Source of the DNA: an uncultured Victivallales bacterium
GTDB taxonomy: Bacteria > Verrucomicrobiota > Lentisphaeria > Victivallales > UBA1829
Assembly: GCA_944391115.1 (NCBI GenBank)
Contig: CALXSJ010000002.1
Span: 1 to 64,000, forward strand
Reading direction: 5' to 3'
DNA: 64,000 nt
Part shown: positions 31,976 to 41,869 of the stretch, in pieces
Layout: each line of letters begins with the position of its first letter
How positions within the stretch are numbered: position 1 is the stretch's first letter
Made by a program: the position numbers and the translations under genes
Notes under the pieces: generated by a model
The model's database searches: none
Told to the model about the DNA's origin: nothing
Seen by the model: only the letters and a program-made list of their open reading frames with translations

Positions 31976-32003
31976 ATAATAAACGCAATAATGGAAAAGT
32001 CAA
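31976..32003 (-). promoter_or_regulatory. Promoter of mfd
   Basis: Minus-strand TTGACT (32003-31998) and TATTAT (31981-31976), spacer 16. The mfd transcript would therefore run through the rpoD promoter in antisense orientation before reaching its start at 31827. Confidence 0.6.
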
Positions 32004-32035
32004 TAGTGCCAAATGGCAAGGAGGCTGGTAAGCAG

Positions 32036-33886
32036 ATGAAATCTTCCTCTCTTTCTACGAAGAAGAATGATGTGAAGAAAGTTTCCTCCGCGGGCGCTAA
32101 GACGGGAAAAAAAGTGGTTCCGCAGCTGAAAACGGCAGCTAAGAGCGTTTCTTCCGGTCCGGTGAAAACCTCCGCTGGGAAAGATGCGTCCTCCGGAAAG
32201 AAACCGGAGAAGAAAATGGCAAAATCTTCCGCCGTGCCTCTGCAGACAAAGAAAATACGGCCTCAGGTGAAAACCTCCGTTCCGGATTTGAAGAAAAAAG
32301 TTCCGGCCGGGGCGGCTCCGGAAAAGAAGCCGTCCGTCAAACCGGCGGCGAAACCTGCCGCCAGGCCGGTTGCGGTGGAGAAACCCGCATCGAAATCCTC
32401 CTCCGGCAAGGCTCCGGTGAAGTCCGCAGGCAAGGCGTCGGACAAGAAGGATGCGAAGACTCCGGAAAAGAAGCCGTCCGTCAAACCGGCGGCGAAACCC
32501 GCCGCCAGGCCGGTTGCGGTGGAGAAGCCCGCATCGAAATCTTCCTCCGGCAAGGCTCCGGTGAAGTCCGCAGGCAAGGCGTCGGACAAGAAGGATGTGA
32601 AAGCTCCGGAAAAGAAGCCGTCCGTCAAACCGGCGGTGAAACCCGTTGCCAAGCCTGTGTCGGTGGAGAAGCCCGCATCGAAATCCTCCTCCGGCAAGGC
32701 TCCGGTGAAGTCCGCAGGCAAGGCGTCGGACAAGAAGGATGCGAAAGCTCCGGAAAAGAAGCCGTCCGTCAAACCGGCGGTGAAACCCGTTGCCAAGCCT
32801 GTGTCGGTGGAGAAGCCCGCATCGAAATCCTCCTCCGGCAAGGCTCCGGTGAAGTCCGCAGGCAAGGCGTCGGACAAGAAGGATACGAAGGCTCCGGAGA
32901 AAAAGCCGGAAAAGGTTGATTATACTCCCTCCACCCTGCAGGTCCTTCCCGAACCGGAAGTTCCGGAATCACAGGAAGGCGCGGAAGGCGATTCCGAACT
33001 TGACGATGAGAAGAAAGAGCTTCTGCCGGGGGGAAAGGTCGGTGTCGTTTCCAAAAACGACACGATGAAGGTCTATATGCAGGATATCGGCCAGATTTCT
33101 CTTGTGACGAAAGAGCAGGAGGTGGATCTCGCTGCAAAGATCCATGGCAGTGACAACATTGCGCACGACGAAGCGCGTGCCACGCTGATCAAGGCAAATC
33201 TCCGTCTGGTTGTCAAGATTGCGCATGATTTCAAGGGACTCGGGCTTCCGCTGCTGGATCTGATTTCCGAGGGCAATATCGGTCTGATGCGCGCCGTGGA
33301 GAAATTCGACCCCGCGAAAGGTGCGAAGTTCAGCTCCTATGCCGCGTGGTGGATCAAGCAGTCGATGCGCCGGGCGCTTGCCAATCAGAGCCGCATCATC
33401 CGCATTCCGGTGCAGTCGGCGGGCAAGATCAACAAGATCAAGTCCATCCGCCTGAAACTGGCGGAAAAGCTCGGGCGCGAACCCACCGATGCGGAGATCG
33501 CCAAGGATCTGGACTACAGCGAGAGAACCGTGGCCGGGCTGCGTCTGGCGGATCTGCGGACCTTTTCGCTGCATGATCCGATCCAGCAGGGCGAGGACGG
33601 CGAATTCCAGGACATCATTCCGGACCGCGGTGCGATGACCCCGGACCGGATTCTGAGCGATGTCGAATCCGTCGGCCGTCTGGTCGATCTGCTTGGAGAG
33701 CTGGATGAACGCGAGCGCATGATCCTGAAGATGCGCTTCGGCCTTGACGGGACCCGTTCCAGAACGCTGGAAGAGGTCAGCCAGGAAATCGGAAGAACCC
33801 GGGAACGCGTCCGGCAGATTCAGAATCAGGCGCTCAGCAAACTGCGCGACCTGCTGGTGGACGAGGCCGGTTTTGCAAATGAATGA
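32036..33886 (+). CDS. rpoD: Primary sigma factor RpoD/SigA with basic repeat N-terminal extension
   Basis: 616 residues from MKSSSLSTKK, with CAAGGAGG upstream; an ATG 45 bases earlier has no ribosome site. Residues about 1-300 are lysine/proline/serine/alanine-rich, including four 48-residue repeats. Then region 1.2 (DTMKVYMQDIGQISLVTKEQ), region 2 (LRLVVKIAHDFKGLGLPLLD, KFSSYAAWWIKQSMRRAL), region 3 (EKLGREPTDAEIAKDL) and region 4 (MILKMRFGLDGTRSRTLEEV, GRTRERVRQIQNQAL). No acidic region 1.1 is seen; the basic extension replaces it. It directs RNA polymerase to housekeeping promoters. rpsU follows; dnaG is not adjacent. Confidence 0.95.
   Translation: MKSSSLSTKKNDVKKVSSAGAKTGKKVVPQLKTAAKSVSSGPVKTSAGKDASSGKKPEKKMAKSSAVPLQTKKIRPQVKTSVPDLKKKVPAGAAPEKKPSVKPAAKPAARPVAVEKPASKSSSGKAPVKSAGKASDKKDAKTPEKKPSVKPAAKPAARPVAVEKPASKSSSGKAPVKSAGKASDKKDVKAPEKKPSVKPAVKPVAKPVSVEKPASKSSSGKAPVKSAGKASDKKDAKAPEKKPSVKPAVKPVAKPVSVEKPASKSSSGKAPVKSAGKASDKKDTKAPEKKPEKVDYTPSTLQVLPEPEVPESQEGAEGDSELDDEKKELLPGGKVGVVSKNDTMKVYMQDIGQISLVTKEQEVDLAAKIHGSDNIAHDEARATLIKANLRLVVKIAHDFKGLGLPLLDLISEGNIGLMRAVEKFDPAKGAKFSSYAAWWIKQSMRRALANQSRIIRIPVQSAGKINKIKSIRLKLAEKLGREPTDAEIAKDLDYSERTVAGLRLADLRTFSLHDPIQQGEDGEFQDIIPDRGAMTPDRILSDVESVGRLVDLLGELDERERMILKMRFGLDGTRSRTLEEVSQEIGRTRERVRQIQNQALSKLRDLLVDEAGFANE
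32318..32893 (+). repeat. Four 144-bp in-frame tandem repeats in rpoD
   Basis: Units start at 32318, 32462, 32606 and 32750, each 144 bases and encoding PEKKPSVKPAAKPAARPV followed by VEKPASKSSSGKAPVKSAG and KASDKKD. Units 1-2 and units 3-4 are closest to each other (AAKPAARPVAV versus AVKPVAKPVSV), suggesting stepwise duplication. Spacing is exactly codon-multiple, so the frame is preserved. Confidence 0.95.
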
Positions 33887-34216: not shown

Positions 34217-35371
34217 ATGATGAGAAATGATTTTCTCCCGTTTTCCAAGCCATCCATCACGGAAGAGGACATCGCCGCGGTTGCGGATGTCCTTCGTTCC
34301 GGCTGGATTACCACCGGTCCCCGGGCGGCGCAGTTCGAAGAGGCGTTCAAACGTTACACTTCCTGCGGCGAGGCGGTCGCCATGACCTCGGAAACCTCCG
34401 TCATGCACGTCCTTCTGCGCGCCCTTGGAATCGGGCCGGGCGATGAAGTCATCACACCTTCGATGACATGGGTGTCGCTGCCGAACACGGTTCTGCTTTT
34501 CGGCGCGAAGGTGGTGTTTGTCGATGTGGACCGCGATACGCTGATGGTCACTCCGGAGGCGGTTGAGGAGAAAATCACGCCACGTACAAAACTGATCGTT
34601 CCTGTTCATTTTGCCGGCGCCGCCCTGAACATGGGTCCGCTTCGCGCCGTTGCGGAGAAGCACGGCATTCCGCTGGTGGAGGACGCCGCACACGCGCTCG
34701 GAACAGAATGGAATGACGAACGCATCGGCTCGAAAGGCACCTGCATGTTCTCCTTCCATCCGATCAAGAACATCACAACCGGCGAAGGAGGAATGTTCAC
34801 GACGTTCGATCCGGACCTGGCCGCGCGCGTCCGCAGTCTGAAATTCCACGGTCTCGGCGTGGACGCCTATGACCGCCAGACGCACGGGCGCGCCCCCCAG
34901 GCGCAGGTTGTGGAACCCGGATTCAAGTTCAATATGCCGGACATGCAGGCGGTGCTGGGTCTGCGCCAGCTTGCCCGTGTTGATGAACTCAATGCGAAAC
35001 GTGAAGCGCTGGCGCTCCGCTACCGCGAAAAGTTCAGCTCCATTGAGGAGATCCTGCCGCTCCGCGACCCGGATTATAAGATCAGACATTCCTGGCATCT
35101 TTTCGTTGTCCGCGTGACCGAAAAGGCAAAGGTGACGCGCGACGAATTCATGGCGGAACTCAAAAAGCGCAATATCGGGACGGGACTTCATTTCCGCTGC
35201 ACGCACCTGCAGAAATACTACCGCGAGGCGCTCGGGTATCGGGAGGGCATGTATCCGAACACGGAATGGAACTCCGGCAGGATCTGTTCGCTTCCGCTGT
35301 TCCCGGACATGACGGAACGCGACCAGGATGATGTCGTCGATGCCGTCAAGGAGATTCTTGCCCGCCGCTGA
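34217..35371 (+). CDS. arnB: ArnB-like UDP-4-amino-4-deoxy-L-arabinose aminotransferase (DegT/DnrJ/EryC1)
   Basis: 384 residues from MMRNDFLPFSKPS, AAGGAG five bases upstream. From memory it is very close to enterobacterial ArnB along its length: SGWITTGP, VDVDRDTLMVTPEAVEE, the PLP lysine in FSFHPIKNITTGEGG, KFHGLGVDAYDRQTHGRAPQ, GTGLHFRCTHLQKYYREALG and PNTEWNSGRICSLPLFPDMT. ArnB transaminates the 4-keto-pentose nucleotide that becomes the lipid A modification Ara4N. No arnA, arnC or arnT lies next to it. The substrate could be another 4-keto sugar nucleotide. Confidence 0.88.
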   Translation: MMRNDFLPFSKPSITEEDIAAVADVLRSGWITTGPRAAQFEEAFKRYTSCGEAVAMTSETSVMHVLLRALGIGPGDEVITPSMTWVSLPNTVLLFGAKVVFVDVDRDTLMVTPEAVEEKITPRTKLIVPVHFAGAALNMGPLRAVAEKHGIPLVEDAAHALGTEWNDERIGSKGTCMFSFHPIKNITTGEGGMFTTFDPDLAARVRSLKFHGLGVDAYDRQTHGRAPQAQVVEPGFKFNMPDMQAVLGLRQLARVDELNAKREALALRYREKFSSIEEILPLRDPDYKIRHSWHLFVVRVTEKAKVTRDEFMAELKKRNIGTGLHFRCTHLQKYYREALGYREGMYPNTEWNSGRICSLPLFPDMTERDQDDVVDAVKEILARR

Positions 35372-35426: not shown

Positions 35427-36218
35427 TTACGGGAGCATGACGGCATCTTTCCGGAAATAGGCGTTCCACGGCTGATGTGTTCCTGTCAGATTTTTATTCA
35501 TCAGCAGTTGAAGGGGAACATTCCGGGCGTTTCCGCCGACCATTAAGGCATTGGCGAAATTCGGATTGTGGTTGGCGCTGATATTGCCGAGTGTGTCCGC
35601 GACACTGTAATAATACGCCAGATAATGACTTCCTCCGGATGAACAGGGCGAGGAAGGAAGCGGCCGGACTTCCGTCGCCAAAAGATGTCCGCCCGGCTGC
35701 GGAACATGATGCAATTTCAGAGGCCACGGCGTATACGTCCAGCTTGTGGGGGATTCCGAGGCAATCAGATTGTTCATTCCGTAGGAGAGGCAGAAGTCGT
35801 AAAAGTTGGGACACTCTTCCTTGTGCAGGTCGGATGGACAGGCGAAGACGCTTTTTTTCCAGCGCTCCGCACGCAGCGCCGGTTGTGCGGTCCGGAACGA
35901 GTCCCCGACATAAATGTAGCAGGAAAGATTGCCGGCCCATGAAAGATTGCCTGTGCGTCCGGCGGGGATGTGATCCTGGTAGTCGCCGCAGTAGCTCAGC
36001 AATGCAATTCCCTGCTGCTTCAGATTGCCGAGGCAGACCACCCCCTTTGCCTTTTCCCGCGCCGACTTCAGCGCCGGCAGCAGAAGAGCCGCAAGAATGG
36101 CAATGACGGCAATGGTGACCAGGAGCTCGATCAGGCTGAATTTCATGCCGTTCGGGTGTGATGCCGCCGTTTCGGATTTTCTTCTTTCAAATCCGGTATT
36201 TTGAAATAAGCGCCTCAT
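35427..36218 (-). CDS. Prepilin-like protein with N-terminal methylation motif
   Basis: 263 residues. The class III-type prepilin start [19 protein letters not shown] is followed by [14 protein letters not shown], then a globular C-terminal domain with cysteines. [18 protein letters not shown] segment corresponds to the H-x9-DG motif, with the Asp lost. Such proteins are numerous in Lentisphaerae/Planctomycetes and are thought to be processed by a PilD peptidase. An upstream start (MRRLFQN) has a plausible ribosome site and is used; MKFSLIE at residue 25 is the alternative. Confidence 0.85.
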
Positions 36219-36249: not shown

Positions 36250-38723
36250 TCATTTGATAATCAGTTTGCCGAAGCGTTCGGGCTGTTGGAATGATCCGAA
36301 GGTCGGACTCCAGCAGGTGAGTTCGGCGGGAACCACTGTTCTGCGCGCCCTGCAGAAATTAATGCCCCAGATGTCGCCCCGCAGTTCCGCTTTGTCCGTC
36401 ATGGAGGCGAAAGGAATCCGGACTTCGGCGCTCCAGAAGTTTTTCCCGCGGAAGGTCCGGACCTCGGCATTGGCGTTCCAGGGGCCGGATTCCGGAGTGT
36501 AGTGGAATGTCCGCATGGTCCCCAGCGAATTGAATATCAGCTGATAATAATGGTTATGCCGATTCGGGGGAGCGAAAAAAAGATCAATGCAGTTTTCCTG
36601 CCAGACGGCGCTTTCCGGATCCCGTTTCCGGTCTGCGATTTTTTCCATCAGAGGCTCTTCGCAGTGAATCCCGATGTAAAGATCGTTGTTTACGACGGCG
36701 ATCCGGACATCGGCGCCGACTTTCACGGTTTCGGCATTTGCATTTTTCTCAATCCGCTGGGAAGGAAGCGCCTCCCAGAATTTCTCATTCAGTTTTCCGT
36801 CAAGCACGGGCGGGGCCGCGCAGCGTTCCGCTTTGATATGTCTGCGTGTCTGAGCCGTCATCAGATATTGCAGCGCTTTGCGGTCCAGCAGATGGAAAAA
36901 CTGCAGATTTCTCTTGCTGCGGAGCTTGCAGAAAATATTCGCGGGCGGGTTCGCCTGTTTCAGCAGGATCGCCTCTCGCTGCGCAGCCAGTTTGTCCGCG
37001 AGTGCCGCCTGTGCCGGAGCGGGATTGCGGGAGGCAAGCAGAGATCTGCCGATCCGGTAAAAATCCACCGTGATCTTGCAGTATGCCAGATTGCCCGCAA
37101 TGATTTGCAGCCGGGCTTTCTGTCCGGGATCCGCAGTTTTCCGGATGGCATCGTTCAGCTTCCGGCTCCATGCTTCGGAAAGCCCCTGATAGACCTTCGT
37201 ATAGATGGTCGGATAACGCTTGATGTAGCCGAGAGCAATGTCCTCGTCCGGTCTTGCAAGGGCGAATGCGGCCATGCGTTTTTCCAGATCCGCCGTATAG
37301 GCTTTCATGACCGGCGCCCCGTGTGTTCCGTAGCAGTCGCGCAGGGCTTCCCGGAAGAGCTTTTCCGGATCCGGGGTTCCCCAGGCGAACTTCAGATAAA
37401 GGTAGTTGTTCAGTCCGGATGCGGCGAATCCGGTATTGTTAGTCGTCTGGATGCCCGAGACGTCTGCTGCGTAAAGATTGTCGAAAAGCATTTTGATGTT
37501 TTCATACTGGTGGCAGGGAAGTTCGAGTCCCCCCATTCCTTCCGGCGTGCAGTAATAATAGAGCTTCCGCAGTTTCTTTCTCCATTTTTTCAGATTCTCA
37601 AGGTGAGCTTTCCGTCTTGCCGGATCGTAATAACCGATGCCGGTGTCGTTCAGCACCTCCATGACTGTAATGGAGGGATCGAGTCGGAGGGTTGCCGGCG
37701 CTTCATAATAGAAGGCGTACGCGAGGATTCCGAATTTCTGTTCCGGCAGTTTCCGTCTGACTCTCCGGGCGACCTCGTTGGCATAGGTCATGATTCTGGA
37801 AGTCATGATTCTGGAACCGTCCGGGCGGACTCCGTCATCCAGCGCGGTGCATGCGGCGCATTCGCAGAATCTGTCGCTGTCATTCGGAGTCAGACTCAGC
37901 ATCCACGGTATTTTCATCTTTTCCCTGGAAGCTACCAGATTCGCCGCATACTGATCGAGCGCTCCCGGATTGGTTGTGCACATTTTGAGTCCATAGCCTC
38001 CGGGATCCTCGTCGCTGCGCCGCCCTTTCACCAGAGCGAACCATTCAGGGTGCTTGCGGTAGTATTTGGAAGCGGGGAAATCGTGCCGCCAGCTGTGCCA
38101 TGAGCTCCATGCTTCCGCAGTTCCCTGCCGGTTGCGGCGCAGCCACAGCTGTCCGGCCCGGATATTTTTTCCGGAGTATCGCCCTGCGGGTAGGGAATGA
38201 CTCCCTGCATGATGCGCAGCTCCATCCGGGGGGCTTCGGCATAATCGAGTGGCTCCATGCTCCAGTTTTTCCGCGTCGGGACATATTCTCCCAGTTCTCC
38301 GGGCATGAACCAGCGGATACCGAGCTGTTTTTCCAGAAAATCGCAGACGCCGTACCAGGTTCCGATATGGGCTCCGTTGGGCAGGTGTGGCTCGAAGAGG
38401 GCTCCTTCTGTGTCATATCCGGAAATATGGATTCTGTTCCCGACGGTTTTCACAACAAAGGTTTCCGGTTTCTTCACCGGGAGAAAACCGAGCAGAAAGG
38501 CCGGTTTATCCTCCGCAACCCGGCCGACGACCGGCAGTTCGGCGCCGGTCGCCTTGGCAATGTACTCCCGGAGATCGTCTGCGGCATGCCGCACGCAGGA
38601 CGGACTTTCCGGATTGACGGAGATGCAGTAATCGCTTTTTCCGTTCTTCACGATTTCCAGCGGTTTTCCGGAAAGCGCCGGAAGACAGAAGACGAAAATT
38701 GCAAGGATGATATTTTTTTTCAT
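36250..38723 (-). pseudogene. DUF4838 plus CBM9-like secreted protein, interrupted by a frameshift
   Basis: The gene starts at MKKNIILAIFVFC (signal peptide) or at an upstream GTG at 38741 that overlaps the LamG stop. It reads in frame through GTWYGVCDFLEKQLGIRWFMPGELG to about PEKIS near 38165, then changes frame. The other frame continues as GQLWLRRNRQGTAEAWSSW and on through the DUF4838 domain (SRIMTYANEVARRVRRKLPE, GYYDPARRKAHLENLKKW) to a CBM9-like carbohydrate-binding end (DGKLNEKFWEALP). Adding one base at a run of six T (38165-38170) restores one 824-residue frame. A 15-bp tandem duplication (37787-37816) also lies inside. A mutational lesion, sequencing error or slippage cannot be told apart here. 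Confidence 0.85.
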
Positions 38724-38737
38724 TTCCCTGTTCCCTT

Positions 38738-39883
38738 TCACCGGATTGCTTCCGGAATGGGTTTTCCCGCCGATACGATTTTCCGGACCTCTTCTCCTGT
38801 CAGCGGGCGTTTGAACAGGGCAATGTCGTCCATCTGACCGTTGAGATAATATCCGACGGCATAGCCGACAATAAAATCAATCGGTTCCGGATTGAGTATG
38901 CAGCGGGTTGTTTTTGAATCTGCCAGTTTTCCATCGACAAGGATTTCGGCTTTCAGGATTCCGTCCGCATAGTTCCAGTTGAAGACAAAATGATGCCAGG
39001 CGTCCGCGTTTTTCTGTTCCAGATCCTTGAGCTGGAAAGAGGGCTGGGCGGAACTGTCCTTGCCTCTGTTCGCGTCATAGATTTTTCCATTCCAGAGAGA
39101 GATCCATTTCAGATGGTTTGTGCCGACTTTCCCTTTTGTGGTTTTTGCCCAGCGGACGCTTAAGAGTCCGATTCTGGACACTGTGGAGGATTTGTTCAGC
39201 CAGGGAGCCTTGATCCAGCAGGCAAACGCTCCGGATCTCCGGTCGAACAGCTGAGGGGGGATGACAATCCAGTCGACATTGCGGATTTGTCCGGGAGGCT
39301 GATAGGTGTTTGCAAACGGGATATCCCGGTCAAACATCAGCTGACGCAGTATCACAGGCTGATCCGAGCGGATTCTCAGAGTGGCGCTGTCTCCTTTCGG
39401 TATGACCGTGATGGCCGCATGGCGCTCCTGCCCGGAAGCGGTCAGTTCGGCCAGCGTGGTCTTCTCATTGCCGGAATCAAGTTCCACGGTGATTCTGCCG
39501 CTTCCCTTGTAGAGGAAGGAAAGACAGTTTTCACTGCCGGGTTTTATCTGTGGAAACGGAAGGGCGGCGAAGCCGTTCGGCGGCAGTGTCAGGATGTTGT
39601 CCGTTCCCTGCAGGACCGCTCCGTTTCCGAGGATTGTTTCTCCGGGTGAAGCGGAGTTCTCGGTGCGGCGTTCGATCAGAAAACTCTTTCCGAACTTCCC
39701 AGGACGCAGGCGGATTGAGCTTTGAATTCTGCAGCCGGGAACCGGAGGGGTCATGTCATCGCAGGAAAGATAGAATTTCAGGTCTTCCTGCAGAGTTCCG
39801 GCATGGACGGGAAAGATGCCATACCATGCGGCAATGGAGACGGAGACTCCGGTCAAACTCATTTTCCAAAGTTTTTTCTTCAT
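38738..39883 (-). CDS. Secreted LamG/concanavalin-like domain protein
   Basis: 381 residues. A signal peptide (SLTGVSVSIAAWYGIFPVHAG) is followed by ill-defined beta sequence and, at the C-terminus, a LamG-type jellyroll (NADAWHHFVFNWNYADGILKAEILVDGK, GYYLNGQMDDIALFKRPLTGEEV). LamG domains bind carbohydrate or act as interaction modules. GAGG precedes the start. Its stop overlaps the GTG candidate of the DUF4838 gene, so the two are probably co-expressed in glycan use. Confidence 0.85.
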   Translation of the reverse strand: MKKKLWKMSLTGVSVSIAAWYGIFPVHAGTLQEDLKFYLSCDDMTPPVPGCRIQSSIRLRPGKFGKSFLIERRTENSASPGETILGNGAVLQGTDNILTLPPNGFAALPFPQIKPGSENCLSFLYKGSGRITVELDSGNEKTTLAELTASGQERHAAITVIPKGDSATLRIRSDQPVILRQLMFDRDIPFANTYQPPGQIRNVDWIVIPPQLFDRRSGAFACWIKAPWLNKSSTVSRIGLLSVRWAKTTKGKVGTNHLKWISLWNGKIYDANRGKDSSAQPSFQLKDLEQKNADAWHHFVFNWNYADGILKAEILVDGKLADSKTTRCILNPEPIDFIVGYAVGYYLNGQMDDIALFKRPLTGEEVRKIVSAGKPIPEAIR

Positions 39884-40016: not shown

Positions 40017-40844
40017 TTATTCTTCCGCATGCTGTTTTTCCGGGATGCTTTCGTCGGCGTGTTCCGCAATCCAGCGCCGTGTCCATTCCACCGCGGGAAT
40101 TCCGAGGTCCGCGATGCAGTTGGAACAGAAAATGATCCCGTCAATGATTCCGTTTCTCAGATATTTGAGATACAGATCGCATTGATGCGCCATTTGTTCT
40201 TCCGTCAGAGGCCTTGACTCTCCGTAATTCCACATGTAGCATCCGGCGAGCCGTTTCCTGCCCGGAGTCATCGCTGCGAATCTGTCAAGATTCTCCTCCA
40301 GATGTTCCAGCGCGCTGCCGCGCCAGGTCCAGAATGTCACCACGTCGCATTCCGCAAGATACGGTTCGACTTCGGGGGACATTTCATGCGCGTAGAGCAC
40401 GATCCAGAGATCAAGGCGCCGTCCGATCTCGTGATGAAGCCGCTCCCGGAAAAATGCGACATCCGCCGGAGAGAAAAGCGTCCTTCGCCTTGCATTGAGA
40501 AAATCATCGAGAATGCCGCCGGTCACGTTCGGGTACTTTCGCGCCTGATTGAGCACATCGTCCAGATCTCCAAGTTTTGCGTCCGTCCTCGAAGAACCGC
40601 CCGATCCGACCACGGACCAGACTACCTGACTCAGATTCTTCAGCGTCTCGGACTCCGGATCGAACGGCGGAGCCGGAAGGTTTTCCATCACGACGCGGCA
40701 GCAGTTCGGAATCCCGAAGAAGGCGCATCCTTCAGCGGGTGTCATGCGGTTGATCCCCGGAAGACGGTAACGGTTGCCGTTTTCCCTGTGATGCGAGCCG
40801 GGAGACTGTCCCCAGAGCCAGAATCTGCTGCGAAGTGTCGGCAT
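40017..40844 (-). CDS. Hypothetical protein, divergent partner of an AraC regulator
   Basis: 275 residues from MPTLRSRFWLWG, with AAGGAT before the ATG. No signal peptide. It has many tryptophans and aromatic residues (DVVTFWTWRGSALEHLEENL, GCYMWNYGESRPLTEEQM, CSNCIADLGIPAVEWTR), and the predicted alternation of helices and strands suggests an (alpha/beta) barrel like a glycosidase-related protein. No family is claimed. Position at the head of the LamG/DUF4838/pilin group and divergent from the AraC gene suggests AraC-controlled glycan metabolism. Confidence 0.78.
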   Translation of the reverse strand: MPTLRSRFWLWGQSPGSHHRENGNRYRLPGINRMTPAEGCAFFGIPNCCRVVMENLPAPPFDPESETLKNLSQVVWSVVGSGGSSRTDAKLGDLDDVLNQARKYPNVTGGILDDFLNARRRTLFSPADVAFFRERLHHEIGRRLDLWIVLYAHEMSPEVEPYLAECDVVTFWTWRGSALEHLEENLDRFAAMTPGRKRLAGCYMWNYGESRPLTEEQMAHQCDLYLKYLRNGIIDGIIFCSNCIADLGIPAVEWTRRWIAEHADESIPEKQHAEE

Positions 40845-40888
40845 GGAAAAATCCTTTTTTTTTGAGAGATTCCCCTTTGTCTTTTTCA

Positions 40889-40925
40889 ATTATATATGAT
40901 ATTTTATTTTTTGACAATATCATAT
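40889..40925. promoter_or_regulatory. Divergent promoter with inverted-repeat operator candidate
   Basis: On the minus strand TTGTCA (40917-40912) and a perfect TATAAT (40894-40889), spacer 17, drive the hypothetical gene. An exact 10-bp inverted repeat ATATGATATT / AATATCATAT (40894-40903 and 40916-40925) overlaps these boxes. A plus-strand TTGACA lies at 40911. It may be the AraC-type regulator's site, but AT-rich palindromes also arise by chance. Confidence 0.6.
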
Positions 40926-40984
40926 TTTATCTATTTCAAGATCAAAACCAAGAAAAGAAGGCATATTCTACAGATTGCAGAAAA

Positions 40985-41869
40985 ATGATTGATGTCATCA
41001 GAAAAGCAAAAGTTGTCATGGAGGTCGCCCGGAAGCAGGAGCTGGACACCTCCTGGGAGACCAGAAACATCAACCCGGAGCGGCTCATCATTCCGTTTAC
41101 GCGTCTCTATTTCCCGCTGGAGGGGGAGGGATCCATGACATATTCCGGAAAGCAATACCGTCTGCGTCCGGGATACCTGTTTCTGATTCCTCCGTATGCT
41201 CCGGTGGTGGTTTCCTGTCCGGAACGGCTTCTGAAGTACTGGGCGCACTTCAATGTTTTTCTCGCTGACTCCGGGGTTGATCTGTTCAACACCGTGGAGC
41301 CTGTGACTGAGCTGCGGGTTCCGGATATGCATGAGTTCAGCGTGCTCTTTGAACATTTGACGAAATGGTATCCGATTCCCTGTTCCGAAAAGTCTTACAG
41401 GGTTTCTCCGCTTGCCGAATTCGAATCGCAAGCCGTGCTGCATCTTCTACTGGAGCCGTTTTATGAATCCATTCTCTCCCATACCAGAAGTTCGGACGGG
41501 CGCAGCATGCGTCTTGTCAAACTGCTGAATTACATCGAAAAAAATCTGAACCGGGAATTAACCCTCCCGCAGCTTGCGGAGACGACCCATCTGAATCCGA
41601 CCTATCTTTCCAATCTGTTTCGCCGCCGCTTCGGGATCTCCCTGATTCAGTACTGCAACAACCGCAGAATCGTGCGCGCGAAGGATCTTCTGATTCACAC
41701 CGACTATCCGATTGAGGAAATCGCATGGCGGCAGGGAGCGGAAAGCACTGCGGCATTTTCCCGGCTTTTCAAGCGTCATGTGGGCTGTTCTCCGCTTTCT
41801 TACCGCAAAATGAAACGGCAGGGAACGCATCCCCGCGGAAGCGGGAAAAATCCGCCTGCGGAACCGTGA
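40985..41869 (+). CDS. AraC-family transcriptional regulator
   Basis: 294 residues from MIDVIRKAKVV. The N-terminal part is a cupin-like sensor (PFTRLYFPLEGEGSMTYSGK, LRPGYLFLIPPYAPVVV). The C-terminal DNA-binding part has two helix-turn-helices: LTLPQLAETTHLNPTYLSNL and YPIEEIAWRQGAESTAAFSR, ending CSPLSYRKMKR, typical of AraC/XylS. The sensed ligand is presumably a sugar. Divergent from the unknown/LamG/DUF4838/pilin group it probably controls. The ribosome site is weak. Confidence 0.93.
   Translation: MIDVIRKAKVVMEVARKQELDTSWETRNINPERLIIPFTRLYFPLEGEGSMTYSGKQYRLRPGYLFLIPPYAPVVVSCPERLLKYWAHFNVFLADSGVDLFNTVEPVTELRVPDMHEFSVLFEHLTKWYPIPCSEKSYRVSPLAEFESQAVLHLLLEPFYESILSHTRSSDGRSMRLVKLLNYIEKNLNRELTLPQLAETTHLNPTYLSNLFRRRFGISLIQYCNNRRIVRAKDLLIHTDYPIEEIAWRQGAESTAAFSRLFKRHVGCSPLSYRKMKRQGTHPRGSGKNPPAEP

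Follow-up and report, generated by a model that had tools for sequence, protein, structure and literature searches.

A DUF4838 gene on the minus strand of the window, i.e., the whole 64,000-nt stretch of DNA analysed here, changes its reading frame at a run of six A (six T on the plus strand) at 38165-38170. This raises the question of whether the gene has been inactivated, is still expressed through the frame change, or is intact in the organism and broken in the assembly. The N-terminal part of the protein and the rest lie in different frames, divided at this run. The N-terminal frame (38028-38723, minus strand) extends for 231 codons from an ATG at 38723 to a TGA at 38028-38030, and it comprises a signal-peptide-like start and N-terminal region (together residues 1-184 by homology) and an out-of-frame tail. 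Judged from sequence, this ATG is the likely start codon; the orthologue described below begins MKK, which makes a GTG at 38741 the less likely choice. The second frame (36250-38163, minus strand) has 637 codons and a stop. It covers the larger part of the DUF4838 domain (about 37294-38121) and ends in a CBM9-like region (about 36256-36804).

An earlier note on this DNA had claimed that the gene is broken at the T run, with the N-terminal frame and the remainder out of frame, and had proposed a comparison with the intact frame in close relatives. Both claims are borne out by the translations, by a codon model and by that comparison. The codon model, trained on the window's own genome, put a one-base shift at 38164; its training set included the long C-terminal frame, and the break position was not supplied to it. 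A DNA search of 100 genomes, the genome itself included, found one syntenic locus, in a same-genus genome (contig CASDPB010000126.1, uncultured Lentisphaeria bacterium; G002). There the orthologue is intact, encodes 824 aa and has seven A at the break site. It aligns in register through the break, with 67% identity to the window pieces before the break and 70% after it, which rules out a chance pairing of two frames; an open frame of 637 codons that is 70% identical to an intact orthologue is not a product of chance. Its locus keeps the gene order of the window, in which the DUF4838 gene is flanked by a downstream prepilin-like gene (35427-36218, minus strand; weak PF07596 match below the cut-off) and upstream by a gene with a laminin-G-like (LamG) domain (PF13385; 38738-39883, minus strand), a further gene with no Pfam match (40017-40889, minus strand) and a divergent AraC-type regulator (40835-41869, plus strand).

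The same orthologous gene, with one base difference in 2475, is carried by CALYAR010000020.1, a contig of 3,144 bases that is assigned to a Clostridia MAG and is probably misplaced there, so the intact version is present in two assemblies. At the orthologous locus the sequences of these two assemblies are almost the same, with about 36 bases of difference at the start of the prepilin-like gene (L043:2637-2672 versus L047:9467-9469). Two further genomes (G041 and G020) have more distant homologues, with 40% and 38% identity to the orthologue; each is open in a single frame and lacks the A-run codons at the break site.

The product of the gene had been described in the earlier note as a surface glycan protein. 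A better description is a DUF4838 protein, probably secreted, with a CBM9-like C-terminus that scores below the curated cut-off. The C-terminal piece matches DUF4838 (PF16126) at 110.3 bits (profile positions 53-324) and the orthologue at 108.8 bits (profile positions 4-324), against a curated cut-off of 26.6 bits. Scores of the CBM9-like end fall short of the curated cut-offs, at 21.2 versus 23.4 for PF06452 and 21.1 versus 25 for PF16011. In a search of solved structures, a five-row profile matched the CBM9 chain of a solved xylanase (E 1e-4). This search returned seven sequences with E up to 1, which were the CBM9-type xylanase module, four alpha-glucuronidase chains (E 0.029 to 0.2, below significance) and two unrelated weak matches. 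Residues 1-184 of the N-terminal frame have no Pfam match, a search of NCBIfam with the two window pieces found no family, and the same search with the orthologue gave one match only, irrelevant and sub-threshold. The AlphaFold model of the intact orthologue, built on a three-row alignment, had a mean pLDDT of 36.

If the break were part of a longer decay, further lesions or relaxed constraint would be expected downstream of it, and the earlier note had counted a 15-bp tandem duplication as a second mutational mark. An exact repeat of 2 x 15 bp does exist at 37787-37816 (minus strand), where it encodes SRIMTSRIMT. It is not a mutational mark, since the orthologue reads SRIMTTRIMT at the same place and at the same length. 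The two distant homologues have TQIMTDRYVT and SRNMSNRIFS in these columns, with no gap. This equal length in all three relatives rules out the repeat as a second lesion; it is inherited, neither insertion nor lesion.

Tandem repetition of another kind is seen elsewhere in the window, at 32315-32908, where a 144-bp unit is repeated in 4.1 copies with 95% matches. It lies inside the N-terminal lysine/alanine/proline-rich part of a 631-codon frame (31991-33886, plus strand), the C-terminal sequence of which looks like a primary sigma factor.

There are no stop codons in the 637 codons after the break. Compared with the orthologue, differences at the three codon positions are 0.237, 0.174 and 0.586 after the break (pN 0.191, pS 0.824) and 0.301, 0.148 and 0.574 before it (pN 0.211, pS 0.782). 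Among the neighbouring genes pN is 0.227 for the LamG gene and 0.245 for the prepilin-like gene, and the other two are more conserved (0.096 and 0.131). As synonymous sites are near saturation, these pN and pS figures show a long shared history and are blind to a recent loss. With the two distant homologues as outgroups, private matches of the window gene and the orthologue after the break numbered 28 versus 32 and 34 versus 27, i.e., there was no relative-rate excess in the window gene. The substitutions downstream of the break have a coding pattern, as in a gene that still functions, so the loss must be very recent or not real. Of the usual signs of a pseudogene, one is found, an intact orthologue elsewhere with the frame lost here; further lesions and relaxed constraint, which only an older loss would be expected to show, were not found downstream of the break. 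The suggestion that two mutational marks point to decay is therefore not upheld, as the repeat is inherited and there is no sign of relaxed evolution in the frame downstream of the break. With no decay after the break, it must be recent or absent from the organism.

Continued coding constraint would also be seen if the gene were still used, and the earlier note had raised slippage and phase variation at the run. Under recoding, some full-length protein would arise by slippage at the A run, either transcriptional or -1 ribosomal. The run lies exactly at the frame change and, according to PMC5574713, the most frequent insertions made during transcription in E. coli and Buchnera are those of one base in A/T runs, insertion being the direction needed. 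The same paper describes an exponential increase of such insertions with run length, so trace in-frame transcripts are likely, but this is silent on their use. Against recoding, the site is not conserved, as the orthologue is in frame and the distant homologues lack the run codons. The run has six A, whereas the used slippage runs in PMC1088944 and PMC3711429 have about nine, or more than seven, A. The codons at the run, GAA AAA ATA, contain no heptamer of the X_XXY_YYZ type. The fold of the 80 bases downstream is not unusually stable (z -1.11), being equalled or bettered in 27 of 200 shuffles. The features of programmed ribosomal frameshifting, i.e., a conserved frame change, a slippery heptamer in phase and a downstream fold, were thus not found at this site; nor was the long, conserved A/T run of productive transcriptional slippage, the run of six being unconserved beyond one orthologue. 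We regard recoding as very unlikely.

Phase variation would require that the run switches length between cells, turning a secreted carbohydrate-related protein on and off. The run does differ by one base between the window gene and the orthologue, and the start of the gene looks secreted. However, these two genes are 68% identical in DNA over their length and come from different species, not from variants of one strain. The run is also short and of a common kind. On the plus strand of the window, 61 A or T runs have a length of exactly six and 29 are longer, and AAAAAA occurs at 126 positions on both strands versus 80 expected in shuffles; this A6 run is an ordinary one, and such runs are somewhat commoner than chance. 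Furthermore, the other 56 DUF4838 matches of the genome have no stop in the matched stretch. Phase variation is less probable still than recoding, and with a short common run, an unconserved site and no canonical heptamer, neither part of the earlier suggestion has positive support. A leaky or switching run, by which a minority of transcripts or cells with another run length make the full-length secreted DUF4838 protein, has a very small chance of being real; if it were, it would maintain the coding constraint seen after the break.

The remaining readings are a base lost from the organism's DNA and a base lost from the assembly, and we scanned the genome for other shifts with the codon model. 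The scan covered 852.6 kb, or 23% of the 3.66 Mb genome; one set of stretches was partly chosen around DUF4838 matches and the other was not. The first codon model separated the frames weakly, and a model with two-base context was used instead. Of the 21 frameshift calls (12 + 9), six at stretch ends were put aside (L083:19996, L089:16, L090:19913, L092:8, C7 stretch:59985 and C11 stretch:39993). The remaining 15, judged by eye, comprised the window gene, one deletion scar on contig C9, two continuing frames (L084:10301 and, less clearly, C13 stretch:2288) and 11 gene ends or overlaps. The window gene is therefore the only clean within-gene one-base shift in the scanned stretches. When one-base losses were simulated in the first 224 kb, the scan recovered 68 of 120 (57%) for runs of at least six within genes and in 86 of 120 for random sites in long genes, so that further shifts may have been missed. 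With only one clean shift at this sensitivity, general homopolymer error across the assembly is unlikely.

An isolated assembly or consensus error, including the collapse of mixed strains, would leave the gene intact and functional in the organism, and is a close rival of a recent inactivating indel. A single lesion at a homopolymer within an otherwise conserved coding frame of 637 codons, with no stop and no relaxed evolution after the break, is what such an error would leave. In addition, the authors of PMC3711429 expect that most singleton frameshifted genes with BLASTP validation reflect sequencing errors, not indel mutations. The counterweights to this expectation are the otherwise clean scan of the same assembly, at its 57% sensitivity, and a sister gene that has really been lost, as described below. 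A run of six is short for a homopolymer error in short-read data, and this too speaks against an error here if the data are of that type. We consider an isolated error quite possible, though not our preferred reading.

The sister genes belong to a large family. The genome has 57 DUF4838 matches. All 56 besides that of the window gene are in open frames of 641-1229 aa and free of stops across the matched stretch, a check that is blind to shifts outside it. Contig C9 carries a remnant (L092:4251-4790, about 34251-34790) that fuses the start of a DUF4838 gene to the 3' part of a prepilin-like gene, and an intact gene of each kind flanks it. The DUF4838 start of the remnant is 85.7% identical over 119 bases to the intact downstream copy, and its prepilin-like end 87.8% over 90 bases to the intact upstream copy. 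From its sequence the remnant looks like a deletion scar between tandem repeated modules, so this lineage is indeed losing DUF4838 members. Of the 24 DUF4838 matches in the 852.6 kb, 17 have a prepilin-type motif on the same strand within 5 kb (28 motifs in all); part of the scanned stretches had been picked around DUF4838 matches.

We therefore lean towards the view that the sequenced strain or population has recently lost one base in the A run, which inactivated one redundant DUF4838 paralogue. This is favoured by the frame offset at the run, the intact syntenic orthologue with seven A in two assemblies, the single open frame of both distant homologues, the lack of any other clean shift in the scanned stretches, the size of the family and the deletion scar; against it, an isolated error in the assembly would give the same picture in one genome of the species. 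The base would have been lost by replication slippage in a short homopolymer. What remains would be a secreted protein cut short at about 231 residues, missing the CBM9-like end and most of the DUF4838 domain; any C-terminal fragment that might be made would have no signal peptide. With so many matches one copy would be redundant, and its loss would be easily tolerated through the dozens of DUF4838 genes in the genome.

One of the two claimed signs of decay is thus removed, and the break stands alone in the scanned 23% of the genome. Of more interest than this lesion is a genome with 57 DUF4838 matches, often beside prepilin-like genes and with at least one deletion scar.

The locus can be compared with three known systems. 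Its match to DUF4838 (PF16126) is well above the cut-off and its architecture is that of the intact orthologue; unlike other DUF4838 proteins, its coding frame is broken inside the N-terminal end of the domain. With the transcriptional slippage of Thermus dnaX and mxiE, as described in PMC1088944, it shares an A/T run at the frame change and a longer product that needs an extra transcript base, but its run is six and not about nine, and the frame change is unconserved in relatives. It is closest to the singleton frameshifted genes of the GeneTack survey, as given in PMC3711429, in that an intact homologue validates the change, the site is not conserved and there is a poly-A at the break. The frame break is an ordinary one, one more singleton frameshift of little import by itself; it differs from those genes in nothing of kind, and what sets it apart is the unusually large paralogue family of its genome.
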